DNA of 33,559 nucleotides from a virus: positions 1-33,559 of IMG/VR virus record IMGVR_UViG_3300027822_000483; one strand, 5' to 3'. This document shows, in pieces, positions 2,528-33,559 of the stretch (positions are counted from its first letter, which is position 1; every line of letters begins with the position of its first letter). The position numbers and the translations under genes are program-made. The notes under the pieces were generated by a model that was given only the letters and a program-made list of their open reading frames with translations, did no database searches and was not told the DNA's origin.

Positions 2528-3379
2528 ATGAAAGGAATAAAAGCATTTAATAAGGGACTGAAATGTAGAGACTTTCAGTATGAGGAAGGAAAGGAGTATA
2601 AAATAAGCAGCAAACCTATGTTGTGTGAAAGAGGATTCCATTTTTGTGAAAATCCATTAGATGTGCTAGACTACTATGATCTTTGTGAAAGTGAATTTGC
2701 TGAGGTCGAAAGTATAGGGGAACTTCAGAAAGAGGAAGATAACAGTAAAGTTGTAACAAATAATATAAAAATTAAAGCAAAAATATCGTTAGCTGGATTC
2801 ATTAAGGCATCCGTTGATTATGTGCAAAAAATATGCAAAATAACTAATAGTAGTGATTCGGGAGATTACAGCAAGTTAGCATCTTCGGGATATTCCAGCC
2901 AGTTAGCATCTTCGGGATATTCCAGCCAGTTAGCATCTTCGGGATATTCCAGCCAGTTAGCATCTTCGGGAGATTCCAGCAAGTTAGCATCTTCGGGAGA
3001 TTCCAGCAAGTTAGCATCTTCGGGAGATTACAGCCAGTTAGCATCTTCGGGAGATTCCAGCAAGTTAGCATCTTCGGGAGATTCCAGCAAGTTAGCATCT
3101 TCGGGATATTCCAGCAAGTTAGCATCTTCGGGAGATTCCAGCCAGTTAGCATCTTCGGGATATTCCAGCAAGTTAGAAATCTCAGGAAAAGATTCAGTAG
3201 GAGCAAATATAGGATACGAAGGAAAAATTAAAGGTGTTTTAGGCTCTTGGATAACTCTTGCTGAATATGATGATGATGGTATTATAAAATGTGTGAAATC
3301 TGCAAAAATTACCGGGCGAAAACTAAAGCCTGATACCTGGTATCAATTAATTGATGGGAAGTTTACGGAGGTGAAATGA
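2528..3379 (+). CDS. DUF7666-like repeat protein
   Basis: This 283-residue protein has an N-terminal domain (about 1-105; MKGIKAFNKGLKCRDFQYEE, ERGFHFCENPLDVLDYY) matching my recollection of the DUF7666 domain common in phages. Then come twelve near-identical 9-residue repeats (about 111-218, consensus SG[DY][SY]S[KQ]LAS), and a short C-terminal domain (about 220-283; GVLGSWITLAEYDDDG, GRKLKPDTWYQLIDGKF). The repeats are predicted to stack as a narrow beta-solenoid. No enzymatic motif is visible. A good GAAGGAGG site precedes the ATG. Its stop overlaps the start of a broken SbcD-like gene (ATGA). The role in the phage cycle is unknown. Confidence 0.75.
   Translation: MKGIKAFNKGLKCRDFQYEEGKEYKISSKPMLCERGFHFCENPLDVLDYYDLCESEFAEVESIGELQKEEDNSKVVTNNIKIKAKISLAGFIKASVDYVQKICKITNSSDSGDYSKLASSGYSSQLASSGYSSQLASSGYSSQLASSGDSSKLASSGDSSKLASSGDYSQLASSGDSSKLASSGDSSKLASSGYSSKLASSGDSSQLASSGYSSKLEISGKDSVGANIGYEGKIKGVLGSWITLAEYDDDGIIKCVKSAKITGRKLKPDTWYQLIDGKFTEVK
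2858..3181 (+). repeat. twelve in-frame 27-bp tandem repeats
   Basis: Twelve 27-bp units encode S-G-[DY]-[SY]-S-[KQ]-L-A-S. Across units 1-11 only three bases vary: G/T in the third codon, C/A in the fourth and A/C in the sixth. All third-codon positions are invariant, and unit 12 ends differently (LEI). Such uniformity points to recent expansion or gene conversion. The antisense open frame across it is a by-product of the repeat. Confidence 0.95.
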
Positions 3380-6069: not shown

Positions 6070-6396
6070 ATGGGAAAAACGATCCAGTGCGTAGATAATA
6101 TAAATAATGATAACCTCTATTATGAAATTGTTTTGGAAAATAGAATTGGTAGGTTTTCGGTAACCGAAGCTTTATTAACTGCTAGTCTTGCTACTATACA
6201 AAAATTGGTTTTTAACAAAACGTTTATTGTAAGGGCAGAACGTCTATATAGTTCAGGCGGTTCAATTGAGTATGTAGCATTTTCTGAATTATTCGAAAAA
6301 AGACCATTGAACCAAGTAATACCGGAATATCAATTCATTTTTAAGACAGCCAATGACGGAAATGTAATGCTTGATAAAGTTGAAGAAATAAAATAG
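6070..6396 (+). CDS. hypothetical protein
   Basis: This 108-residue protein starts at ATG 6070 (MGKTIQCVDNINND), with a GAGG-like site at about 6060-6063; an in-frame TTG at 6058 is the alternative. It has an alternating beta pattern (YYEIVLENRIGRFSVTEALL, FIVRAERLYSSGGSIEYVAF) with no membrane segment. It lies in a run of small early genes before the primase. No family recognised. Confidence 0.55.
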   Translation: MGKTIQCVDNINNDNLYYEIVLENRIGRFSVTEALLTASLATIQKLVFNKTFIVRAERLYSSGGSIEYVAFSELFEKRPLNQVIPEYQFIFKTANDGNVMLDKVEEIK

Positions 6397-9403: not shown

Positions 9404-9660
9404 AAGGCAGTAGGTAGTAAGAGAGCAAAAACTCTTACTACCAATGTTACTACCAAGATAAATTATTACAAATAAATAACTTAGGGTGAAAAGTAGTAGG
9501 TAGTAGGAGTAAAAACGGTTTTCAAACTTAGAATGGTTCATAAATATTTTAGAATATCTCTTACTACTCTTACTACCTACTACTATCTACGAAATCGGAT
9601 TAAAAACAAAAGATTTGAGGTAGTAGGAGAAAATTAGTTCCTACTACCTTCTTACTACCT
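9404..9660. repeat. GTAGTA-type direct and inverted repeats, candidate origin
   Basis: This 257-bp noncoding stretch is built from variants of GGTAGTAAGAG / GTAGTAGGAG in both directions. A perfect 11-bp stem with 8-nt loop lies at 9413-9442. An 18-bp inverted repeat with one G-T pair lies at 9492-9509 and 9567-9584. A perfect 10-bp stem lies at 9618-9627 and 9640-9649. Extra half-sites lie near 9448-9454, 9558-9567 and 9651-9659. It directly follows the primase and helicase genes, which is where many phages carry iteron-like origins. No T-tract suits a terminator. Origin function is inference; an operator array is the alternative. Confidence 0.6.
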
Positions 9661-10663: not shown

Positions 10664-10697
10664 AAGTAGGTTCTTTCTAGCGTTTTCTCAGTACGGG

Positions 10698-10714
10698 TTC
10701 TGGAACTTCCAGAA
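10698..10714. other. hairpin after gpZ-like gene
   Basis: TTCTGGA pairs perfectly with TCCAGAA across a 3-nt loop (ACT), 34 bp after the gpZ-like stop. An AAAATTTTT stretch follows 5-6 bp later, so weak termination is possible. It may divide the early block from the packaging operon. The remainder of the 10664-10854 gap has no supported ORF. Confidence 0.4.
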
Positions 10715-10854
10715 AGCGTAAAATTTTTAGACATATTGTATGTGGTTTCGTTTCGTAAAGTATTATATTAAAAGGAGTTAGGCGTTTTGAAAAGCCAATT
10801 AAAATTATAAAATCCGCTATTTCAAAGCCTTTAATAAAAAATGAAAAGAAAAAT

Positions 10855-11376
10855 ATGAACACCGGTATAGTCGATGGACATATATTAGCAGAATTTTGGG
10901 AAGTTAGTATTAGAACTATCCAAAATTATTCTAATGAAAAAAAATTTAATCCGCCGTTGCCAAAAGTTGATACTAATAAATATGATTTGATTACTGCATG
11001 TAAATGGATTTACAACATGCAGAAAGAAAAAATACATAAACTAAAAACAGCCGGAGATGAAAAATTATCAGATCTAAAAAAGGAAAAACAGATAATAGAT
11101 AATAAGAAAGCTGAACTTGCTTTAAAAAGAGAAATGAGAAAAATAGTAGATGCAAAATCTGTTTTAATTGCGTGGACTAACTTGCAGAAAGTAATTAAAA
11201 ATAATGATACTCAGCTTGAATATGACTTAATACGAGATCTTGAAGGGGTAACAGATGAAAAGAAAAAAGCTGAAATTATCAGCAAGGGATTTGCTGAAAA
11301 AGATAGACAACTAGAAAGAAATGATATAGTTAAATATATCGTTGATGAAGAAAGTTTCTTAAGAGAGGCGATATAA
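10855..11376 (+). CDS. terS: terminase small subunit (Nu1-like)
   Basis: This 173-residue protein is the probable DNA-recognition subunit of the packaging motor. The N-terminal winged helix-turn-helix (about 1-35; GHILAEFWEVSIRTIQNYSNE) matches the Nu1/terminase small subunit layout. A long charged helix follows (about 60-100; DLKKEKQIIDNKKAELALKR), typical of the oligomerisation region, and then a helical C-terminus that would contact the large subunit. The large subunit lies 1.3 kb downstream, separated by three accessory ORFs, which is an unusual gap. The reading frame is open upstream for about 30 codons but has no usable start, so ATG 10855 is chosen. Confidence 0.8.
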   Translation: MNTGIVDGHILAEFWEVSIRTIQNYSNEKKFNPPLPKVDTNKYDLITACKWIYNMQKEKIHKLKTAGDEKLSDLKKEKQIIDNKKAELALKREMRKIVDAKSVLIAWTNLQKVIKNNDTQLEYDLIRDLEGVTDEKKKAEIISKGFAEKDRQLERNDIVKYIVDEESFLREAI

Positions 11377-12645: not shown

Positions 12646-14715
12646 TTGATTATTAAGTTAAAACGATATTGGGATGAACTTGAAAGAGAGATTATGTTTA
12701 GCAATCTTACCGAGATTGTTATGGAAGGATTGCGTCTGCTGATTCCACCAAAACTTCAACAGATATGGGAGTGGGGAGAAGAAAATATTGAACTCGATTC
12801 CACTACGGCAATACCGGGACCATTTCGTATAATAAACTCACCTCACATAAAAAGATTGTTTTTTGCATGTTTAGATCCAAGAGTTAGACAAATCACAATT
12901 GTTGGTTCAGTCCAGATTGGTAAAACTCTTTTCATGCTAATCGATTGGGCATTTACCGTATGTAACATTCCTATGGGGATGATGATGATGCAACCCACTA
13001 AAAAAGATGCTACTACTTTTATTAAAACAAAGTTAGATCCTTTTATCGATAACAACGAAATTGTTAGGAAGAAGGTTCGATCAAAAAAGAAGAAAGGAAC
13101 TAACGACACTGTTGATAGTACAGCAGATCTCAAAATGTTTAGTGGGGGATGGACGGAAATAATTCATGGCGGATCAAAAGGTGCAACAAGGGGTCGTTCA
13201 CCTCAAAAAACCTATGGTGATGATATTACGGCCATTCAAACGGATATCCGCTCTGAAGGTGATCCGGCAAAAAGGTTGGAGAACAGAACAAAGGCTTACA
13301 AAAACACATCAAAAAATATTAATATATCTCAACCCGGACTTGTAGATAGCTGTAATATCACATCTCGCTACGAACTAGGTTCTCAAGAAGAATATCATGT
13401 AAAATGTTTGGAGTGTGGCGAATACCAGGTACTGGATGATGATCTTGTTGTATGGGATCAAGATAAAGATGTTTTCGGGAAAGTAATAAAAGATTATCCG
13501 GAAACGGCTAAAATACCATGTAAATTTTGTGGTACTTTATTTAGTGAATCAGATAGAATAAAAATGCTTCAAAATGCAATGGATAATTGTGAAGAAGGAT
13601 TCATTTTTGGGTATAAGGCAAAATATCCGGAAATGGTTACGCATATTTCAGTGCAGATAGGGCAGGCAAGTTCTACTCTCTCGAATCTTGAAAAAATAGT
13701 AAACGAACGCATTGCAATGGAAAAAGCGGGAACTGATGAAGCGAAACAAGATTATTGGAACACAGTTAAAGGGAGAGCGTATAGAAGGGGAATAACGAAA
13801 GAAACAGATCCACTTGTCCTTATCGATCGCAATAGAAGTAATTATATTGATCTGAAGGATTATAAAATACCAAATGATGTGTTGCTAATAACTTGTGCAA
13901 TAGATGTCCAGAAAGGTAGTGAGAAAAAAACGGAGAATGAAAAGCCGGAAAACTCTTTTAATATAAAGGAAGCAAGAATTGAATATGAATATTGGGGATG
14001 GGGAATAGGTGAACAAGGTTGGATTCTTGATAAAGGAACTTTTCCCGGAAATATAACTGACCTTAAAGATGTATGGAAAAAGTTTGATGATTACTATGAA
14101 AAGAAGAAATTTGTTCGTGAGGATGGGATAGAGTTAAAAGTGACTAGAGTTTTTGTTGATTCCGGTCATGAATCAGATACTGTATATAAATATGTTGAAG
14201 ATAAACAACATTTTGGTTTTTTTGCCATTAAAGGATCTAATCAGTATGATGCTGAAATGCTTAGTAGAAACGTTAAACCGGTAGAAGGAGATACTGTTTT
14301 TAAAATTACTCTTGGAACTCAAAAAATAAAACATACAATATATACTAGATTAAATGATATAATAGATAAAGGTGATAAATTCCTTAACTTTGCAGATGTT
14401 TACTGTAATAGAGACTATTTTGATCAGTTAACAGCAGAAAGAATGCATGTAAAAATTGTTGGAAACAACACCTATTTCTATTACAAGAAAAAGAAAGATA
14501 AATTACCAAATGAAGCATTGGATTTATTGGTCTATAACTTTGCTGCTTTGAAACACTGTTTACCCAAATTCAATGCTATTAAAGAGGATCTTGAAAAGAT
14601 TAAAAAAGAAAGAGAAGTTAAAAGTGAAGAAGCTGAACAAGAAGAAACACAAAATATAAATTATACACCAAGAAAACCAAAAGACAATTACACCGTAGAT
14701 GGTTGGAATAATTAA
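12646..14715 (+). CDS. terL: terminase large subunit, GpA family
   Basis: This 689-residue packaging motor ATPase-nuclease of the lambda gpA type is the subunit that translocates and cuts phage DNA. Visible parts: Walker A GSVQIGKT (about 87-94), a PTKKDATTFIKTKLDPFI stretch, GSKGATRGRSPQKTYGDDI, a zinc-knuckle-like pair (CLECG near 255 and CKFCG near 293), the nuclease-region Asp in TCAIDVQKGSE, and VFVDSGHESDTVYKY. The TTG start at 12646 has AGGA about 11 bp upstream. ATG 12694 with AAGAGAG just before it is an alternative and would remove 16 residues. Length fits the family. Confidence 0.95.
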   Translation: MIIKLKRYWDELEREIMFSNLTEIVMEGLRLLIPPKLQQIWEWGEENIELDSTTAIPGPFRIINSPHIKRLFFACLDPRVRQITIVGSVQIGKTLFMLIDWAFTVCNIPMGMMMMQPTKKDATTFIKTKLDPFIDNNEIVRKKVRSKKKKGTNDTVDSTADLKMFSGGWTEIIHGGSKGATRGRSPQKTYGDDITAIQTDIRSEGDPAKRLENRTKAYKNTSKNINISQPGLVDSCNITSRYELGSQEEYHVKCLECGEYQVLDDDLVVWDQDKDVFGKVIKDYPETAKIPCKFCGTLFSESDRIKMLQNAMDNCEEGFIFGYKAKYPEMVTHISVQIGQASSTLSNLEKIVNERIAMEKAGTDEAKQDYWNTVKGRAYRRGITKETDPLVLIDRNRSNYIDLKDYKIPNDVLLITCAIDVQKGSEKKTENEKPENSFNIKEARIEYEYWGWGIGEQGWILDKGTFPGNITDLKDVWKKFDDYYEKKKFVREDGIELKVTRVFVDSGHESDTVYKYVEDKQHFGFFAIKGSNQYDAEMLSRNVKPVEGDTVFKITLGTQKIKHTIYTRLNDIIDKGDKFLNFADVYCNRDYFDQLTAERMHVKIVGNNTYFYYKKKKDKLPNEALDLLVYNFAALKHCLPKFNAIKEDLEKIKKEREVKSEEAEQEETQNINYTPRKPKDNYTVDGWNN

Positions 14716-14739
14716 ACCTTTGTTGGAGATACAAAAACT

Positions 14740-14961
14740 ATGAGCAAAGCAATACGTCCTTACATTGATAAAAAGAATCAAGTAAAATTAGATGCTATAG
14801 GAAAGGTTGTTGATAGAAAAACAACATACCTTGTAAATATGATTCTTGATAATTTTTTTGAAAGTGGCGATGGTTTAGAAAAGGCAAAAATTATATTAAA
14901 TAATAATTATGATAAGTTAAACTTCAATAATAAAATAAACTTACCCAAGGGAAAACAGTAG
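14740..14961 (+). CDS. ribbon-helix-helix-like DNA-binding protein
   Basis: This 73-residue protein has a short strand (IRPYIDKK), helix (NQVKLDAIGKVVD), loop, and second helix (YLVNMILDNFFES), the order of Arc/CopG-type ribbon-helix-helix domains, followed by a polar tail. Such proteins bind DNA repeats as dimers. A 10-bp tandem repeat lies about 280 bp downstream and is an obvious candidate target. It could be a late-gene or partition regulator. Which one is not determinable from sequence. Confidence 0.6.
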   Translation: MSKAIRPYIDKKNQVKLDAIGKVVDRKTTYLVNMILDNFFESGDGLEKAKIILNNNYDKLNFNNKINLPKGKQ

Positions 14962-15179
14962 TTTTTGGATAATCAACAAAAAGTCATGTAAATATACTGG
15001 GTTCTAAATAATGTGCGAATTTAAACTATATTTAAACTTTTCTAAAATAAGAAAGTTGCTTAAATCGCCTTATTTAAGGTTTTGGCAATATATATTTAAA
15101 CCTATATTAATTAATTTTATTTAAATAGAACCTCGATATAAATATAAACTCATAAGAAAAGAATAATTATTAACTTGCC

Positions 15180-15204
15180 ATTCCCGAATGTTGGTATCGG
15201 GAAT
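15180..15204. other. perfect 8-bp stem hairpin
   Basis: ATTCCCGA (15180-15187) pairs perfectly with TCGGGAAT (15197-15204) across a 9-nt loop. No T-tract follows. It lies 40 bp before the 10-bp tandem repeat and may be part of the same control or packaging site. Confidence 0.55.
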
Positions 15205-15243
15205 CTAAAATAAAGAAGCATTTATGTTCATAGATATTTATTT

Positions 15244-15300
15244 TTAGTACTGCTTAGTACTGCTTAGTACTGCTTAGTACTGCTTAGTACTGCTTAGTAC
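15244..15300. repeat. 10-bp tandem repeat TTAGTACTGC, 5.7 copies
   Basis: Five exact copies of TTAGTACTGC plus TTAGTAC, with no mismatch. Each unit contains the palindrome AGTACT. The 10-bp period is close to one helical turn, so a protein bound to each unit would sit on the same DNA face. This suits a cooperative binding array for the RHH protein encoded at 14740-14961 or for the small terminase. Function is inferred. Confidence 0.9.
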
Positions 15301-15333
15301 GTTCCCCAATTTATTAATCATCCTTACATTACT

Positions 15334-15355
15334 ACCCAAAGCAAAAACTTTGGGT
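15334..15355. promoter_or_regulatory. hairpin at the gpW-like start
   Basis: ACCCAAAG pairs perfectly with CTTTGGGT across a 6-nt loop (CAAAAA). The right arm ends 4 bp before the ATG at 15360, where the ribosome binding site should be, and no better Shine-Dalgarno sequence is present. It may lower or control translation initiation of the head operon. Confidence 0.45.
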
Positions 15356-15359
15356 GCTC

Positions 15360-15893
15360 ATGTCCGATATCACAGATCAAAAACTTTATGCCGGCGATAC
15401 AATTGATTGGGAAGAAAGCAATTCCGATTACCCGGTTACTACCCACACAATAAAATATTTATTACAAAGAACAAATGAAGCACCCAAAGAAACAGCTCAT
15501 TCCGTATCCGGAAGCAACCATAAATTTACAGTAACCCTACCAACAACCGGCGGTACTTATAGATTCCAGAAAAAAGCTATTCTAACATCCGATAGCTCGC
15601 AAAAAACTATTGATGATGGATTTGTTGAGATTGAAGCAACATTGGCCGACGGCACTGATAATAGATCCTATAATAAACAAGTTCTGGAAGCTCTAAAGGC
15701 TGCGCAATTAGGTTATGCCACTAGAGAACAAATTAAAATTGAAGTATCCGGGAGAGCAATTGAATATTACTCTCCAAAAGAAAGAGAAGATTTAATTGAT
15801 ACTTATGAGGCAAAAGTAAAACAAGAGGAAAGAATAGAGAATGGTTTGTCTGGCATTCCGCAAGTAGTTCAAGAAATTGGAGTTATTACATGA
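15360..15893 (+). CDS. gpW-like head-tail joining protein
   Basis: This 177-residue protein starts at ATG 15360 (MSDITDQKLYAGDTIDWEES); GTG 15354 is the alternative. The first ~90 residues are beta-rich (TIKYLLQR, HKFTVTLPTTGGTYRF). The C-terminal half (VLEALKAAQLGYATREQIKIEVSGRAIEYYSPKEREDLIDTY) has the helix, strand-loop-strand (g-x-x-v-x-y), helix pattern of gpW, the small connector protein encoded just before the portal in lambda-like phages. It overlaps the portal start by 4 bp. The extra N-terminal domain is not part of the usual ~68-residue gpW. The functional call rests on position and pattern. Confidence 0.55.
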   Translation: MSDITDQKLYAGDTIDWEESNSDYPVTTHTIKYLLQRTNEAPKETAHSVSGSNHKFTVTLPTTGGTYRFQKKAILTSDSSQKTIDDGFVEIEATLADGTDNRSYNKQVLEALKAAQLGYATREQIKIEVSGRAIEYYSPKEREDLIDTYEAKVKQEERIENGLSGIPQVVQEIGVIT

Positions 15894-17437
15894 GTCAACT
15901 AGGTCAATTTTTTGAATATACAGTGTTAAAAGCTTTAAGTAAAATCATGCCTAATACATATGCCAGGGCATTTGAAGCAGCTCAAGTAAACCGGCTTACA
16001 TCTGATTGGAACAACTTTGCAAAGACCCTTAATTCTGATATTAGAATGAGTTTACCGCATGTACAAAAAAGATGTTTAGATCTATATCAAAATGATCCAT
16101 ACGCAAGAAAAGTAATTACCATGATTGGGAATGGTGCAGTTGGAGCAAAAGGATTTACACTCCGTAATAAAGCTAAAATGGAAATAAAAGAAGATGGAAT
16201 AACCAAAACTGTTCTCGATACCGAAACAAACCAAAAAGTACAGGATATATTCAAAGAGTTCTGCAAAAAAGAGTTTTGCACAATTACCGGCGATATACCA
16301 AAACGTGAATGCGACAAAATAATGATTCAGCAAGTTGGGTTGGCCGGTGAAATCTTCAAAATCAAAATCACCGGAAAAGGTGTTAATAAATTTGGCTTAA
16401 CATATCAGTATTTAGAAAGTGATTTGTGCGATATCAATTACAATGATGTTTCTCCAGAGGGCAGAAAAATTGTAATGGGTATTGAATATGACGAATACAG
16501 AAGGCCGGTAAACTACTATTTCAAAAAAGTTAATATTGTTATGGATGTGTTCGGTGTTCCATATTCCAATGATTATTACAAAATACCGGCAAATAGAGTA
16601 ACTCATTTATTTGTAAGAGAATCTTTTAACCAATTCCGAGGCATTCCTTGGTTGGCTCCAAGTGCCTTACGCTTAAAAATGTTGAAAGGTTTTGAAGATG
16701 CAAGTCTGGTAAATGCAAGAGTATCTGCTATGAAAACGAATATTTGGGAACCGGTAGACGCTAAGTCGGGTGGATTAACAACTGCTGATGTTGCCGGCGG
16801 TAAAGAGGATTCCAAAGGCATAACTAAAGAAAACGTTCAACCGGGGCAAACTCAAATTGTTCCCAAAGGTTATAAGCATGTTTCACATGATCCTAAATTT
16901 CCACATGAACAGCATGATCCATTCCGCAAATCAATATTAAAAGGCGTGGCATCAAATATTGGTGTAAGCTTTATTAAGCTCGCTAATAGTTATGAAGATG
17001 CTAACTACACTTCAACACGTGGATCATTTTTAGATGAACAAGACTTATGGATGGAACTGCATACTTGGATAACGGATCATGATCTAATTGATACATTCGA
17101 AACAGTTTTAACTCATGCGTTGCTTGCTGATTTAGTCGATTTGGATATTCTCAACTTTGATCAGTTCAACAAACCACACTTCCAGGGCAGAACATGGAAA
17201 ATGGTTAATCCGAAAGATGAAGTAAAAGCAAATTACGATGCTTGGAAAGCAAAACAAAAAACACTTTCTGTAATACTTGCCGAACAAGGGATGGACTTTG
17301 AAGAAACTATTGATCAGTTCGCATATGAAAAAGAGTATATGGAAAAGAAAGGTGTAACAATAGAAGATATAAAGAAAAATAATAATATAGAAAAAGGTGA
17401 AGGAAATGAATCGAAAGGACTTAAACAAGCAATATAA
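15890..17437 (+). CDS. portal protein, lambda family
   Basis: This 515-residue portal is the ring protein at one capsid vertex through which DNA enters. Supporting features are NRLTSDWNNFAKTLNSDIRM near the N-terminus, ALVRAR-like RCLDLYQNDPYARKVITMIGNGAVGAKGF, RVTHLFVRESFNQFRGIPWLAP in the middle, and SQTNYSS-like SYEDANYTSTRGSFLDEQD further on, the landmark order of the lambda portal family. Length fits. It overlaps the gpW-like gene by 4 bp and the protease-capsid gene by 32 bp, so the three are probably translated together. Confidence 0.92.
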   Translation: MSQLGQFFEYTVLKALSKIMPNTYARAFEAAQVNRLTSDWNNFAKTLNSDIRMSLPHVQKRCLDLYQNDPYARKVITMIGNGAVGAKGFTLRNKAKMEIKEDGITKTVLDTETNQKVQDIFKEFCKKEFCTITGDIPKRECDKIMIQQVGLAGEIFKIKITGKGVNKFGLTYQYLESDLCDINYNDVSPEGRKIVMGIEYDEYRRPVNYYFKKVNIVMDVFGVPYSNDYYKIPANRVTHLFVRESFNQFRGIPWLAPSALRLKMLKGFEDASLVNARVSAMKTNIWEPVDAKSGGLTTADVAGGKEDSKGITKENVQPGQTQIVPKGYKHVSHDPKFPHEQHDPFRKSILKGVASNIGVSFIKLANSYEDANYTSTRGSFLDEQDLWMELHTWITDHDLIDTFETVLTHALLADLVDLDILNFDQFNKPHFQGRTWKMVNPKDEVKANYDAWKAKQKTLSVILAEQGMDFEETIDQFAYEKEYMEKKGVTIEDIKKNNNIEKGEGNESKGLKQAI

Positions 17438-19433
17438 AGATTGGTTTAGCCGGTCAGCTACTATTAGAACTGAGTCTGTTAAAGCTGAAGACATGATTAT
17501 TGAAAAGGGAGTTCTTGCAACCGAACAGCCGGTCATTGTTTTTGATTGGTACAGATGGGAACCGGTAAGAGAAATATTATTGATGAAAGGTTGCCGGATT
17601 CCGGAAAACGGCCAAGTCCCTTTGCTCGATTCTCATTCCAGATATTCAACCGAAGAAATAAAGGGTTCTGTTAGAAATATAGTTGACGGTGTTGATGAAA
17701 AAGGCGAACCAATAATATTAGGTGATTACCATTTTGAGCGAGAAGCAAAACGAGAGTTTAACATGGTGCAAGATGAGCACCTAACAGATACATCCATTGG
17801 TTATAAAACATATGATGAACATACAATTGTTGTAGCTCCAAAAGAAAGAACTGAAATAGACGGTAAAGAATACCGTAATGATTATGGTGATGATTTTACA
17901 TTATTGATTAGGGAAGTGTGGGATCTTAAAGAAGATTCACTTGTTGCTATTGGCGCAGATGATAGAGCAAAGTTCAGGAGCGAATTTATAGACCTAAATA
18001 ACTTTCCGGTTAAAAACCTAAATAATGTTGATCCAAAAGAGATAGATGGAATTAAAAACAGCATTAAAGAATTAAATAATAGTGTGACAAAAATAATTTC
18101 AATAAAGGGAGATGGTCCAATGACTGAAGAAGAAAAAAAGAAATTTGCCGATGAAGCAATAGGAAAGAACAGGATTAGAGAAGAAAAAATCAATGATTTT
18201 GCTGGCAAATTCAAAGGCCAATTCAAAGATGAAAAGGCGGCAACTGAAAGAGCTATAAATGAGAACTGGGATGTAAATAAATTCAGAGATTATGTGCTCG
18301 ATAACCTTAACAATGGTGGCGCAGTTGAAACGCCAGCCACCGAAATTGGTATGACCAACCAAGAAGCGATTGATTTCTCAATTACAAAAGCATTGGATGC
18401 TGTTCTCAATAAAGATTGGTCAAAAGCCGGGAAAGAAAAAGAAGCACTTGATACAGTACACAAAAAGGTTGAACCAAAGAACGGTGGTATAGTATTGCCA
18501 AGAGAAGTTCAATTGGTTGGAGCAAATACAGCTAATAACTTAAATGCTAATTTCCGTTTGGCATTAGCACTTAATAATCGTGAGATGATGGAAAGAGCTT
18601 TGCAAGTTGCCACAGACTCTGCCGGTGGGTATTTGGTCGGAACAGAAAACAAAGGGGATGCTTTTATTGAAATGTTGCGAAACAAATCCGTATTAGGACA
18701 AGCCAGAATAACAATATTGTCTGGTCAGAAAGAAGATCTGGACATTCCAAAACAAGTTGGTTCTGCAACATTTAGTATGGTTGGAGAAGGTGGTGCAGCA
18801 AATCAAAGCTTCTTAACGCTTGGCCATGTAACTAGTACTCCAAAGACCGGAACAATAACTACAGAATATACAAGAAGATTATTGAGTAGATCTAACCCGG
18901 CAATTGATGGATTAGTATTATCAGATATTCTCGCATTAAACAGAAATGGATTAGACAACAAAGGCCTACATGGAACCGGCGTTGGGAATGATCCGGAAGG
19001 CATTGCAAATGTAACCGGCGTTGGAACGGTTGATATGTCAACTCCTAGTTGGCCTAAAATTGTTGAATTTGAAACAGATGTTGAAGATGCAAATGCAGAT
19101 ATTAATTCAATGGGCTGGATAACTAATCCATTGGTCAAAGGGAAAATGAAAACTGTTTTAAGGGAAACCGGAACTGGTAATTATTTAATGAATGATAGCG
19201 GTTTGATGAATAATTATCCATCACACATTACTAAGAATGCAAATTCTCAGCATTTATTCTTCGGTGTATGGAATCAGTTAATCTTAGTTGAGTATGGAAT
19301 ATTAGAGTTATTAGTAAATCCTTACGGTGAAAACTCAAGAGCCGGTAATGTTGAAGTAACAAGCTTTATTGATTTTGATTATATCTGCCGACATGCGGCT
19401 GCTTTTTCAATTTCAAGCAATGTTGGCTTATAG
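17406..19433 (+). CDS. fused prohead protease and major capsid protein
   Basis: This 675-residue polyprotein starts at ATG 17406, supported by AAGGTGAAGGA (GTG 17397 is possible). Residues ~1-200 form a prohead protease with catalytic His in VPLLDSHSR (H77) and a Ser in DTSIGYKT near 130. A charged helical delta/scaffold-like stretch (~225-330; MTEEEKKKFADEAI) follows. An HK97-fold capsid protein runs from ~385 on (GGYLVGTENKGDAFIEMLRN, then FSMVGEGGAANQSFLTLGHV and PSWPKIVEFETDVE). The protease probably cuts itself and the linker out during head maturation. Such fusions are known in some phages. A hairpin follows the stop. Confidence 0.92.
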   Translation: MNRKDLNKQYKDWFSRSATIRTESVKAEDMIIEKGVLATEQPVIVFDWYRWEPVREILLMKGCRIPENGQVPLLDSHSRYSTEEIKGSVRNIVDGVDEKGEPIILGDYHFEREAKREFNMVQDEHLTDTSIGYKTYDEHTIVVAPKERTEIDGKEYRNDYGDDFTLLIREVWDLKEDSLVAIGADDRAKFRSEFIDLNNFPVKNLNNVDPKEIDGIKNSIKELNNSVTKIISIKGDGPMTEEEKKKFADEAIGKNRIREEKINDFAGKFKGQFKDEKAATERAINENWDVNKFRDYVLDNLNNGGAVETPATEIGMTNQEAIDFSITKALDAVLNKDWSKAGKEKEALDTVHKKVEPKNGGIVLPREVQLVGANTANNLNANFRLALALNNREMMERALQVATDSAGGYLVGTENKGDAFIEMLRNKSVLGQARITILSGQKEDLDIPKQVGSATFSMVGEGGAANQSFLTLGHVTSTPKTGTITTEYTRRLLSRSNPAIDGLVLSDILALNRNGLDNKGLHGTGVGNDPEGIANVTGVGTVDMSTPSWPKIVEFETDVEDANADINSMGWITNPLVKGKMKTVLRETGTGNYLMNDSGLMNNYPSHITKNANSQHLFFGVWNQLILVEYGILELLVNPYGENSRAGNVEVTSFIDFDYICRHAAAFSISSNVGL

Positions 19434-22802: not shown

Positions 22803-25128
22803 AAAAAACACTATTGATATTACCTTTAATGCTAGGCTCGCTAAACTTGAGAGAAGAGTCGCTACGGCGGAAAAACGTGTAATATCTTCAACTGCCAGAA
22901 TGCAAAGGTCTGCAAATATGTTGGCTAATGCGACGCAACGTTTGCCTATGGCATTTGGCGGAGTAGCCGGTGCCGGTTTGGCGATGGGTCTTGTTATTAA
23001 AAAAGGAGTTGATTCTTTTATAAATCTTGAAGATGGAATGAGAAATGTTAATACCATTCTGAAACTATCCGAAAAAGAATTAGCCAGCTACACAAAACAA
23101 GTTGAAGCTTTACAATCTGAACTTGGTGTATCAACAGAAGATTTAACCAATGGATTGTATCAAACCGTTTCTGCCGGTGTTTCTGCCGGTGATGCTATAG
23201 AATTTTTAGGCATAGCTACAAAAGCTTCAATTGCGGGTATTAGCTCTGTAGAAACAGCAGTTGACGGACTAACCACCGTTTTGAATGCATTCCATTTAGA
23301 GACATCCGAGGCTACAAAAATATCCGATATTATGTTCCAAACAGTAAAATTAGGTAAAACTAATTTTGAGCAACTTGCATCTTCTATTTCAGAGTTTGCC
23401 CCAATGGCTTATTCGTTGGGTTTAAGTTTTGAACAAACAGCCGGTGCATTAGCAACAATAACAAAACAAGGTGTTTCTACAAGTCAAGCAGCTACACAGT
23501 TAAATGCAGTATTTACTGGTGTATTAAAAGGGCAGGAGCGTGCTCGTGGAATGAGTGAACAAGTTGCTGAAGCATTTTCCATACAAGCATTAAAAGCAAA
23601 GGGATTACAGAAATTCTTAGTGGATCTGGAATTTGCTCTTAATGGTGATCAAGAAGCGATGGTAAAATTATTTGGTAGAGCTGAAGCAGTTAAAGGAATG
23701 TTACAGTTAACAGGCGGAAATGCAAAAATGGCTGCCAAGGATTTAGACTCCATGAAGAACTCATCAAATGCTATGGGTGAAGCTTTTGCTGAGCAAGAGA
23801 AAAAAACTTCACGTAATGCAAGCAAGCTAAGCGAAAACGTAAACAAATTAGTCCAAACCTTTGCTAAGTTGGCAAAAACGCCAGTAACGAATGCAATATC
23901 CGGATTGGATGCATATTTAAAATATTACCTTAATTTATATGATGGAGTGACTGAAGTAATAGATAAAATATCGGAGAGTTTACCGAAACTGAAAGCTCAA
24001 TTGATAGAGGCCGGGCAAATTATGACTGGGAGCAGATCAAATCAATGGTATAGCAAAGGTTTAGATTTTAACGCTGGGCAATTTAGTAAAGATGATTTAG
24101 AAAACTTAAGAACTGGGAAAAGATTTATTCCCAGCCTTGGCATGGTAACTAATGATGATTTTGTGAAAGAGACAAACAATGATGCTAAAAGTTTAGTTAA
24201 AACATTCAATATGTATTCTGCAACTCAAGACGAAATAAATGATAAAATTACTGAGTTGAGGGATTTAAGAAAAGAATTAGTTGTGTGGTCTGGTAAGTAT
24301 ATACAGAATTTAGAGCAAGAAAAAAAACTAAGTAATTATTTAACCAGCAAACCGGTTAAATACTCTCCAATTGGGAATGTGTCCGGAATTATGATGCAAG
24401 ATCAAAATATAACTGCTGATAATGCGGATGTTTGGTTGAAAAAAATAATGCGTACGCCGGATATAAGGTTTACTCAAAGGAATGAAGAAAACACAGGTTC
24501 AAGGAAAGCATTAGTTCTTGATTGGATAGAGCAGAGTTTTGCAGAACAAGATCGTTTGTTTAATCGTATGTATAATAATGCCAGTGAACTTGGGTTTGCT
24601 TTAGAAGATGCATTTTCCGGGCATGGAAAAACTCTATTATCAAGTATGAATCAAGCATTGCAAATTGCATTAAGAATTAGCGATGCGCTAAGAAAAGACG
24701 ATGGAACCTTTGCCGGTGGTTTGGGCACTGCGGCCTCGATTGTTCCGGGTGCTAGTTTCATATGGGATTTATTCGGTGGTGGAAAAGCCGGCGGCGGCCA
24801 TACTTCTCCTATGAAATTTTATGAAGTAAATGAAAAGGGAATTGAGGGTCTTTCCGTAAATGGTCATGACTATTTAATGATGGGTGCAAATAGTGGATAT
24901 ATAACACCAAACGAAAGGATAAGTATGTCTGGCTTCGGTAGTAAGGCTAATAACGATATGAAAGAAACAAACGAAATGTTGGAAGTGCAAAATATGTTAT
25001 TGCAAAATTTAAGCGAAGCTTTTGATAGAGGTATAAACAGCACTACACTAAATGCAAGAGTGACTAACCGACAGATATATTTTAGTAATAAGAAAGGTTC
25101 AAATATTTATAAGAGATATCACGGATAA
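22795..25128 (+). CDS. tail tape measure protein
   Basis: This 777-residue protein sets tail length and travels with DNA. It has a charged N-terminal coiled coil (about 5-50), then a TP901-type core with hydrophobic helices (AFGGVAGAGLAMGLVIKKG) and FEQLASSISEFAPMAYSLGL, ALATITKQGVSTSQAATQLN, KLFGRAEAVKGMLQLTGGNA. A Gly-rich stretch near 640-665 (DLFGGGKAGGGHTSP) leads to the C-terminal part. The order and motifs match TP901-family tape measures. At the usual ~0.15 nm per residue the tail would be roughly 115-120 nm. It follows the G-T gene with an 8-bp overlap. Confidence 0.92.
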   Translation: MAKKNTIDITFNARLAKLERRVATAEKRVISSTARMQRSANMLANATQRLPMAFGGVAGAGLAMGLVIKKGVDSFINLEDGMRNVNTILKLSEKELASYTKQVEALQSELGVSTEDLTNGLYQTVSAGVSAGDAIEFLGIATKASIAGISSVETAVDGLTTVLNAFHLETSEATKISDIMFQTVKLGKTNFEQLASSISEFAPMAYSLGLSFEQTAGALATITKQGVSTSQAATQLNAVFTGVLKGQERARGMSEQVAEAFSIQALKAKGLQKFLVDLEFALNGDQEAMVKLFGRAEAVKGMLQLTGGNAKMAAKDLDSMKNSSNAMGEAFAEQEKKTSRNASKLSENVNKLVQTFAKLAKTPVTNAISGLDAYLKYYLNLYDGVTEVIDKISESLPKLKAQLIEAGQIMTGSRSNQWYSKGLDFNAGQFSKDDLENLRTGKRFIPSLGMVTNDDFVKETNNDAKSLVKTFNMYSATQDEINDKITELRDLRKELVVWSGKYIQNLEQEKKLSNYLTSKPVKYSPIGNVSGIMMQDQNITADNADVWLKKIMRTPDIRFTQRNEENTGSRKALVLDWIEQSFAEQDRLFNRMYNNASELGFALEDAFSGHGKTLLSSMNQALQIALRISDALRKDDGTFAGGLGTAASIVPGASFIWDLFGGGKAGGGHTSPMKFYEVNEKGIEGLSVNGHDYLMMGANSGYITPNERISMSGFGSKANNDMKETNEMLEVQNMLLQNLSEAFDRGINSTTLNARVTNRQIYFSNKKGSNIYKRYHG

Positions 25129-31100: not shown

Positions 31101-33037
31101 GTATATATGCTGATTATTACGTCAAAGCAACAGGTACTAATACTACTTTTTCAACAGCGACAGAAATTGGTAGCGAAATGGATATGGCAACTTTTGAAGC
31201 CGGTTGGGTGGCAAATCTTTCTGTAAATGATTTAGTACATTTTTCTGGTGATTTCGAAAAAGAATATGTATACGGAGTAACAGCAGTAAATTCCACAGCA
31301 TGGGATTTTATCAATCTTCCAAATGGTGTAAAATTCTTTTCTACAGATAAGGCTAAATTCACTGTTTACCAAGAACTTTATGGATGGGATAATACTAGTC
31401 ATTGGGTATTGGATAATACTACCTACAGTGATGGTACAACATTCTGGACATATGATTTTAGTGATTTTGGTTATTATGACCTTGAAGAAACTGGATGTTC
31501 AAGACTTTGGTTTGATGATAAAGAAACGCCAATGTGGTTAAGCCCGGACATTTCTGCTGAAGGATCTACGGTAGCTGCTACTGGGGCAGCAAAAGATTCA
31601 ACATTTGGTAGGCCTAATGCAAACTATAGATTTACAATTAACAAATATGATATGGCGGCAGTACGAGAAGTTCATGTTTGGGATTCGGCAGGTATAAACC
31701 CCGCTACTAAATATAATTCAATTAAACATATAGGTGGTTTTAAGCAATTAATCAATTTCGAAAATACAGATAATTTAACTGTAGACGGATTAGTATTTGA
31801 AGGTTCTGATTTCTTTACAGTTACCTTTAAGAATTGTGATAATGTTACTTTTTCTAATAGCTACATCACAAAATTTGAGTATATGGCAATAAGATTTAAT
31901 GATTGTGCAACTGTAACTATGTTTGGAGATTCTATTTATTCTGGATATGCTGATGTAAGTGGTACTGGTCATATTTACTATGAATATTTTTCAGCAAACA
32001 ATGGTTTAGATGTACAAAACTCTACTTCAAATATCGATATATATGATTCTTGGCTTATGGATATTACAACAATGCCTTTCCGAGTAATATCATCAACAGG
32101 TAATACGACCAATGTTCGCTTCCATAATAATGTAATAGGAACAAATATCACGATGGATTATGCCCGACCTTATCAGATTGGTGAAAGTACAGCTGGTGCA
32201 TCTTATTATCCTAGCAATATTCATATCTATAATAATCTCATGAAAAATGGGACTATGCGGACAAAAAATATTGCACAGTATACTTACACCTATTTTAACA
32301 CTTTTGTAGACTGGACAAATTTCAAAGATTCGATAAGTCATCATTTTAATTCAACTGGTGGATGGGATAAACCAGCTCCCGCTGGAATGGGAAATAGCTT
32401 TCAATTTGGACATACAAGCGGAACTGCATTAAGTGCGGTAGCTAATGAACATTGGTTTTTTAATAACACTTATCTTAATTTTAATGCAACTCCAATCAGT
32501 TATGAAAGTAAATATCAAAGAGCAATCCCGTTGTACTGGATTAACAACGCATTTATAAATATGAGTAGGAAGCACGTTAAGAAAGGTACTGGTCATCCAA
32601 GTTTTACCAATGCTACCGGTGATATAGATTTTCTAATCAGTGAACAAGGAAATTCACCTTTTATACTAAGAAATAATTATATCTGGAATGATCAGACAGT
32701 TGATACTTATGATTCAACTATAGTGTACGGTCAATACAATGGATCTACTTTTACTCCGAATTATTATTCTTTAAGTGGTTTTGAATCAGCCTTAGTAGCT
32801 AATGACACCGCTACTAACAATATAAAAGAAACTAATGTTGCTAAAACTTTAAGCAATATAATAAACACAACTACTTATGAAATGCAAACTACCTCAGCAC
32901 AAGATAACGGTTATATGGATTCACGAATATTAACTATCCTTGGTCCCAATTTCTTTGATCGGTTTGGAAACAGAGTAACAAATGCTGACGGAACTCTTTA
33001 TAATTCTCAAATAAATAGAGGTTCAAATAATAAGTGA
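28178..33037 (+). CDS. 1619-residue multidomain receptor-binding spike
   Basis: Signal peptide MVKKIFLLLLLSFSLYG|QP (1-17). Then a jelly-roll/CBM-like domain whose ends (~85-153 and ~562-580, closing with ATMDNFSVKEN) flank an inserted block (~154-561) that includes a LamG-like lectin (~358-520; HYSFDGDDYITF, YIFNRYNRALS). Next come an Ig-like choice-of-anchor-D domain (~630-738; LAPGDSTQLEIYFNP), an FN3 (starts ~740, SAPTELTASNGDGSIDLSWS) interrupted by a CBM-like insert (~768-905), FN3 end (YDGYEIYAQ to ~970), and a right-handed beta-helix spike (~975-1619). It probably binds surface glycans or proteins and may cut them. The CCGG-free 28.06-30.24 kb suggests transferred DNA. Function is inferred from domains. 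Confidence 0.8.
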   Translation: MVKKIFLLLLLSFSLYGQPHLLLPQIRKANIYTLTPTVNINYGDSDSLISIMFTHSMGFNPFIIEGIDLSDTNVIALLPNTELVADSNGIFSDTTTIGDWGTEGGASLTNNSDSTATFSNVAANKDSAKIVLATEGMQKNQFYNLSVDVKEGESIFYESDFSLGTDGFSNSNNSVVDGNIDKVTDGSTSYDNVLAISIYDQTNTTHRAQKDLSQTVNKWYYFEIEYLFPSSNSHANGFSLANSAWGISHNPANGSVIGTWTKFTAKVKAEDVYTTRIYLTDDAVSTFTDDANLDTLYIANFKLYELEDSSQTIKEGKLIWQYYSEDLVFEEDSTDQLTSTDSTYSFSILGKEADNHYSFDGDDYITFNPFNYDSTDAYSLRIVFSYDLENNTTNSYYLMGRNGYKDFIKFVERPSDSDYIQFENWTDETTTGYSEISGLHENKLEYVYVYNGNGTVKWYYNGDSIGVATNYDGKIQGVEEIGRGYGGGSDHRGNIYIFNRYNRALSNTEVSNLYLKIDISTDSLKIDFNGTSGNVSFSQWTDDTGNNHGTVNGATAEKYPRFSLSLTENAKATMDNFSVKENYYKVVVEHGDTISRGVIVKGDVLGSHSVNLIVNNTTQKGEDTLAVSVNVENLNSLVADAIDFDTVTTATVIFPWIKNLSASTLNITSYSGLNAPFYSNSARHVSSLAPGDSTQLEIYFNPISANGAFIDTFIITHNGNGSPMEWTIQGVANLPLENLLSAPTELTASNGDGSIDLSWSDPNIPDTLEYISYDFTNQSDTIDWKPRHGEPKERVIENGKMKTFDDNLGTAWPSTVLMVSVNSTDTYRFSVDAEVGTANSVWFVIINKNTREYYVNYQSTKDTVYTATLSNISGTDSLEIYLQCVTDNGEYSYFDNFLIEKTYPSYDGYEIYAQKFLNGSVDIPYYLLEYVLGGGLSYSHSVSDGDEYSYKVRYKNNTDYSPFSNEDTLLYSAPSIYADYYVKATGTNTTFSTATEIGSEMDMATFEAGWVANLSVNDLVHFSGDFEKEYVYGVTAVNSTAWDFINLPNGVKFFSTDKAKFTVYQELYGWDNTSHWVLDNTTYSDGTTFWTYDFSDFGYYDLEETGCSRLWFDDKETPMWLSPDISAEGSTVAATGAAKDSTFGRPNANYRFTINKYDMAAVREVHVWDSAGINPATKYNSIKHIGGFKQLINFENTDNLTVDGLVFEGSDFFTVTFKNCDNVTFSNSYITKFEYMAIRFNDCATVTMFGDSIYSGYADVSGTGHIYYEYFSANNGLDVQNSTSNIDIYDSWLMDITTMPFRVISSTGNTTNVRFHNNVIGTNITMDYARPYQIGESTAGASYYPSNIHIYNNLMKNGTMRTKNIAQYTYTYFNTFVDWTNFKDSISHHFNSTGGWDKPAPAGMGNSFQFGHTSGTALSAVANEHWFFNNTYLNFNATPISYESKYQRAIPLYWINNAFINMSRKHVKKGTGHPSFTNATGDIDFLISEQGNSPFILRNNYIWNDQTVDTYDSTIVYGQYNGSTFTPNYYSLSGFESALVANDTATNNIKETNVAKTLSNIINTTTYEMQTTSAQDNGYMDSRILTILGPNFFDRFGNRVTNADGTLYNSQINRGSNNK

Positions 33038-33310: not shown

Positions 33311-33559
33311 ATGGAATTTCTGAAAGAGTGGTGGTTTATAATTAGTCCGATAGGAATAGGGATCATGATAGGATTAAAATATTTTTTTAGTCAAATGATA
33401 TTCAAGCCAATAAAAGAAAATAAGGATGCTATTGAACATCAAAACCGGAATTACAATAAAAAGTTTGATGAAACCCATGAAAAACTGGATGGAATAACTA
33501 AAGAAACTGCTAACAATGCAGGAAAATTAGATGCAATTATTGAGTTAATAAAAAAATAG
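33311..33559 (+). CDS. holin-like single-TM protein
   Basis: This 82-residue protein has one N-terminal hydrophobic segment (about 7-30; WWFIISPIGIGIMIGLKYFF) followed by a polar coiled coil (DAIEHQNRNYNKKFDETHEK). AAGGAA precedes the ATG. The layout fits small phage holins or hemolysin-XhlA-like proteins, and its position after the fibre genes fits a lysis role. No spanin or endolysin follows in the window; the GH73 enzyme at 21062 could be its partner. It ends exactly at the window edge with TAG. Confidence 0.55.
   Translation: MEFLKEWWFIISPIGIGIMIGLKYFFSQMIFKPIKENKDAIEHQNRNYNKKFDETHEKLDGITKETANNAGKLDAIIELIKK

Follow-up and report, generated by a model that had tools for sequence, protein, structure and literature searches.

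A perfect AGTACT decamer array between the terminase and head genes of a viral contig: possible repeated operator or slippage repeat

Gene order around the terminase-head gap

The sequence analyzed here is a virus contig of 33,559 bases, and this whole stretch is referred to as the window; its first base opens an ATG (position 1) and its last base closes a stop codon (position 33559), as though it had been trimmed at gene borders. On the plus strand, a small terminase subunit gene (10855-11376; phrog_57, E 3.7e-06) is followed by further ORFs, by the gene for a large terminase subunit of the GpA family (12646-14715; profile match), and, directly 3' of the latter, by a 73-aa ORF (14740-14961). 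A gap then leads to the genes for a head-tail joining protein (15360-15893; phrog_5774), the portal (15890-17437), and a protease-plus-capsid protein (17397-19433), all on the same strand. This gap (14962-15359, unstranded) spans 398 bp, is AT-rich (27% GC), and contains no ORF of at least 50 aa. The gene list made for this analysis has eight gaps of at least 90 bp, of which this is the longest. A 37-aa AT-rich ORF inside it (15011-15124) gave no family match. The Bacteroidota-type promoter consensus was not matched within the gap, sigma-70-like matches in the region 14600-15500 were weak (9 versus 4.5 in shuffles), and no Rfam family was matched in the window.

The stop codon of the large terminase gene and the start of the portal gene are 1174 bp apart in this contig, versus about 249-666 bp in 60 of the 63 distant loci that have both genes (from 80 terminase loci among the matches listed). 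The three exceptions were loci with distances of 780 bp (L067) and 1367 bp (L072) and one with the portal match elsewhere (L047), and a single gene lies between terminase and portal in the annotated phages Alexa, Lagaffe, Alux-21, and Lelie. On the basis of these distances, the ORF at 14740-14961 together with the gap looks like an insertion relative to the distant relatives. The terminase relatives obtained by the alignment scan were 24-28% identical in all 80 loci, among the matches listed. Close relatives were sought by scanning viral_contigs with the terminase and the portal, and none was confirmed; such single-protein scans need exact 8-residue peptides, and moderately diverged relatives can be missed. 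The L067 locus contains a small cysteine-rich ORF (2572-2751) between terminase and portal, which presumably recalls the Com zinc protein of Mu. Small regulators may commonly be located at the terminase-portal junction.

The decamer array and comparable arrays

The array (15244-15300, unstranded) consists of 5.7 perfect copies of TTAGTACTGC with a 10-bp period, namely five full units and the 7-base partial unit TTAGTAC, with 100% matches and a TRF score of 114. The first-pass annotation had described five exact units and one partial unit, each with an AGTACT palindrome, lying 280 bp after a ribbon-helix-helix gene. The units and their position were borne out: the palindrome is present in every full unit, and the array begins 282 bp past the stop codon of the ORF at 14740-14961. 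The first head gene is about 60 bp away. By TRF-type score, the array ranks second in the window, behind a 27-bp coding repeat at 2857-3176; the coding repeat comprises 11.9 copies within a 283-aa ORF. AGTACT occurs once elsewhere in the window versus 5.0 expected from overlapping words, counts that are too few for use. Perfect arrays with a period of 8-12 bp and at least three copies were absent from the 80 terminase loci (among the matches listed; 595,033 bases). Because no such array was found in these loci, the window array is more than base-composition chance, a result that leaves room for replication slippage. Arrays of this kind are uncommon, and the 595-kb survey does not separate selection from slippage. 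Literature searches on the decamer repeat yielded no useful text. Overall, the array is real but small, and it may be a protein-binding switch or mere copying slippage.

Three AGTACT palindromes at 10-bp spacing, with free spacers, were found at 22 viral loci, and the control palindrome ACTAGT gave 19. Runs of at least four were present at 9 of the 22 AGTACT loci (five distinct arrays) versus 1 of the 19 ACTAGT loci. In another phage group, an array of AGTACTTAAG occupies one site with matching flanks and has 3, 4, 4, 6, and 6 copies in L112, L097, L101, L104, and L111, respectively; such arrays therefore change length, and this spread in copy number favors slippage. The AGTACTTAAG array resembles that of the window in placing AGTACT every 10 bp between genes, but it has another spacer, unrelated genes (ribonucleotide reductase upstream), and a variable copy number. 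Two viral contigs with common genes and a common array (L005 and L006) contain the exact two-unit 20-mer of TTAGTACTGC. Their array comprises six consecutive AGTACT; the upstream gene has a weak match to an endonuclease, and the downstream gene is that for a 5' nucleotidase. We rejected these contigs as linked relatives of the window, as their flanks were not alike beyond chance (the best of eight comparisons was matched by 12 of 300 shuffles). The same 20-mer occurred in three bacterial contigs, each carrying two or three units, and a control 20-mer built from the reversed unit was found in one viral contig. A host element was also rejected: a 26-base AGTACT pattern was present in none of the 296 genomes from the Hymenobacter phylum and in 1 of 150 from the Pseudonocardia family, the single match being the genome on which that search was centered, so that the pattern is not a common bacterial repeat. 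In that central genome, the Pseudonocardia genome G002, contig C43 carries two different AGTACT decamer arrays (22903-22928 and 32183-32208), 9 kb apart, one of which closely follows the end of a gene. A run of twelve AGTACT spaced by 10 bp, with the unit AGTACTGGAT, was observed at 6217-6332 of a 371-kb viral contig (L113), which has a few scattered AGTACTNNNNAGTACT pairs elsewhere.

A sequence close to the partial unit recurs in the window. The element TTACTACC, which over its first seven bases has a single difference from TTAGTAC, was counted 8 times versus 0.83 expected; five of these sites lie in a gap at 9404-9660 behind a VapE-type helicase gene, and two lie round the start of the head-tail joining gene (15329 and 15436). 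Elements of the GTAGTAGG/CCTACTAC and TTACTACC types crowd the gap at 9404-9660 in both orientations, and the structures found there include inverted repeats of 20 and 15 bp and a hairpin whose loop is AGCAAAAA. This region is origin-like or operator-like, and, as a second control or origin-like region, it may share a protein with the array region.

Predicted folds and the 73-residue ORF

The hairpin that had been noted at 15180-15204 was found on the plus strand as ATTCCCGA-N9-TCGGGAAT, with an 8-bp stem, a 9-nt loop, and no T-run behind it. Its predicted stability was modest and unremarkable (z -1.91; 9 of 200 shuffles at least as stable). A second plus-strand hairpin, absent from the first-pass annotation, is predicted at 15328-15363, where a stem with a ACCCAAAG/CTTTGGGT core surrounds the loop CAAAAA and an outer ACAU/AUGU pairing covers the ATG of the head-tail joining gene at 15360. 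None of 200 shuffles was as stable as this predicted fold (z -4.14), and the head-tail joining start had the second most stable fold among 44 chosen start regions. By eye, a purine-rich stretch precedes many other starts; at 15360, none lies outside the stem. The sequence AGCAAAAACT is common to this hairpin (15340-15349) and to the hairpin in the 9404-9660 gap (9424-9433), with 2 occurrences seen versus 0.16 expected. When the array was folded as RNA, it formed one long stem of -20.9 kcal/mol (z -3.11), a stability matched by 2 of 200 shuffles.

The ORF at 14740-14961 had been taken for a ribbon-helix-helix (RHH) gene, an assignment that the profile searches did not uphold. Pfam, PHROG, and NCBIfam profiles gave nothing credible for this ORF up to E = 10, and the Pfam models RHH_1, RHH_3, and RHH_5 gave no match up to E = 10 in the 33.5-kb record, whereas the same models matched in 14, 11, and 13 of 14 control genomes, respectively. 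The sole sequence support was 37% identity (17 of 46 residues) to a plasmid CopG-family protein at E = 2 (tblastn, plasmid collection); the gene for the matched protein adjoins a RelE/ParE toxin gene. An AlphaFold single-sequence model was poor (pLDDT 52), with helices at residues 11-23, 26-40, and 45-60 and no strand, and Foldseek gave no meaningful match with it. Two of the helices in this low-confidence model lie at the places expected for an RHH protein, so the modeled helix order would suit that fold, and the ORF product is a possible RHH DNA-binding protein. Relatives of the ORF were not found in viral_contigs with six exact 8-residue patterns, in the 80 terminase relatives (among the matches listed) by tblastn, or in 148 genomes in the phylum of Hymenobacter, the last being a homolog search run without a positive control.

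Readings of the array

The proximity of the array to the large terminase gene would suit a packaging start (cos or pac), one of the functions first suggested for it. The small terminase subunit recognizes the packaging site, and in GpA/lambda-type phages cos lies beside the small-terminase gene. The array is neither adjacent to nor inside that gene, and arrays of its kind are absent from the terminase loci surveyed. We consider a packaging start very unlikely because the small terminase gene and a palindrome-bearing gap lie 4.4 kb upstream of the array: the 191-bp gap before the small terminase gene (10664-10854) contains an inverted repeat of 14 bp around a single central base, with the core TTCTGGAA-c-TTCCAGAA, and is a candidate cos region that is more likely than the array. 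Least probable of all is the partition-like site also proposed at first, in which the array would be the centromere of a plasmid-like prophage and the small protein encoded at 14740-14961 would bind it as a ParR-like or ParG-like adaptor. A cluster of direct repeats, a feature of partition loci, is present (5.7 copies of 10 bp), direct repeats of 10 bp in pB171 and 11 bp in R1 are ParR sites according to the excerpt of PMC9426499, and the record has no tyrosine-integrase match, so that an extrachromosomal prophage is possible. Partition is disfavored because no ParA-type ATPase was found; the AAA_31 search gave no match in the record while all 14 controls matched. A ParM-type model matched neither the record nor any control. 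The gene order is also unlike a par operon, with the ORF at 14740-14961 lying in the head module. If the gap is instead transcribed, the array and the hairpins could act in the mRNA, the array forming a long stem and the last hairpin hiding the start codon of the head-tail joining gene; the head genes would then be translated only once a protein or a refolding had intervened. The folding of the array, the stability of the start-codon hairpin, and the position of the ATG within its outer pairing are consistent with such an RNA leader, but good folding is expected of any tandem palindrome array, Rfam gave no match, and the hairpins, which lie apart from the array, may have no connection with it. 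We regard this leader as unlikely.

Two further readings remain to be weighed. In the one that we favor, though tentatively, the gap is an inserted regulatory leader with a small ORF, and its 10-bp array is a multi-copy operator. Almost level with it we place the possibility that a chance decamer with the self-complementary AGTACT was expanded by polymerase slippage and has no function, the length of the gap being immaterial. The perfect copies suggest a recent expansion, the AGTACTTAAG array has between 3 and 6 copies at a single site whose flanks match, the same decamer occurs in an unrelated virus (L005/L006) with no detectable flank homology, and even the reversed-unit control was found once in viral contigs. 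Against such a functionless repeat stand the excess of runs of at least four AGTACT over the control palindrome, the lack of any such array in the 595 kb of related loci (among the matches listed), and the location of the array where control would be expected. These points also argue for the operator, as do the perfect 10-bp repetition with a palindrome in each full unit, the position shortly before the first head gene within the longest gap, and the long terminase-portal distance relative to the loci listed. The operator is opposed by the absence of RHH profile matches to the neighboring ORF, by three-copy AGTACT decamers being hardly commoner than those of the control palindrome in viral contigs, by the variable copy number of the comparable array among related phages, and by the lack of a Bacteroidota-type promoter in the gap, where sigma-70-like matches are weak. 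In addition, one AT-hook motif was the sole DNA-binding match among ten ORFs near four comparable arrays.

RHH dimers of MetJ bind side by side on arrays of tandem palindromic 8-bp met-boxes, and the unit of the Omega iterons is 7 bp ("heptad repeats"). The window array shares with the met-boxes the tandem palindromic boxes, on which dimers could sit side by side, but differs from them in box length, sequence, and spacing, with no sequence link. ParR proteins, typically RHH, bind direct repeats of 11 bp in R1 and 10 bp in pB171 (excerpt of PMC9426499), and Omega binds promoter-overlapping sites of 7, 9, and 10 iterons with an affinity that depends on their number (excerpt of PMC5016525); both are precedents for a repeated operator. 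The window resembles the ParR-parC systems of R1 and pB171 in having several 10-11 bp direct repeats near a small-protein gene, but here no motor protein was found, the ORF is only a candidate RHH gene, and the location is a phage head operon. As with the Omega repressor of pSM19035, short tandem repeats lie in a putative control region and copy number would tune affinity, whereas the unit here is 10 bp with a different sequence and the binder is putative. By analogy with ParR and Omega, the location, the palindrome in each full unit, and the 10-bp phase are compatible with a repeated operator to which a dimeric protein binds.

In the operator that we favor, a regulatory leader and a small ORF would have been inserted between the terminase gene and the head genes. 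We infer that one dimeric DNA-binding protein would occupy each AGTACT, that adjacent dimers, held by units on nearly the same helix face, would touch and bind together, and that occupancy of the array would set transcription of the head-tail joining, portal, and capsid genes. Slippage probably generated the present copy number, which was then presumably retained because more sites would mean tighter binding. The nearest candidate binder is the product of the ORF at 14740-14961, and helix-turn-helix proteins encoded at 1-2269 are alternative candidates. The late-operon switch envisaged in the first-pass annotation thus stands in part: the longest gap, its place at the head-tail joining start, and the additional start-codon hairpin fit a control region, but the link between an RHH protein and the array stays conjectural, since no RHH model matches the ORF. 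A broader proposal, which we regard as a long shot, makes AGTACT repeated every 10 bp a control element that recurs among phages: it would have arisen separately in unrelated phages, a small dimeric protein of the phage would bind it, and slippage in copy number would alter its strength. In this contig, it would act as the switch within an inserted control cassette of the head operon that includes a start-codon hairpin.

If slippage is the only explanation, the locus is an example of decamer arrays arising in phage gaps and warns against calling such arrays binding sites. If the array is an operator, it would be a dedicated control point within an otherwise tightly packed block of terminase and head genes, with a candidate for its regulator encoded by the neighboring ORF, and the number of repeats could alter its strength.
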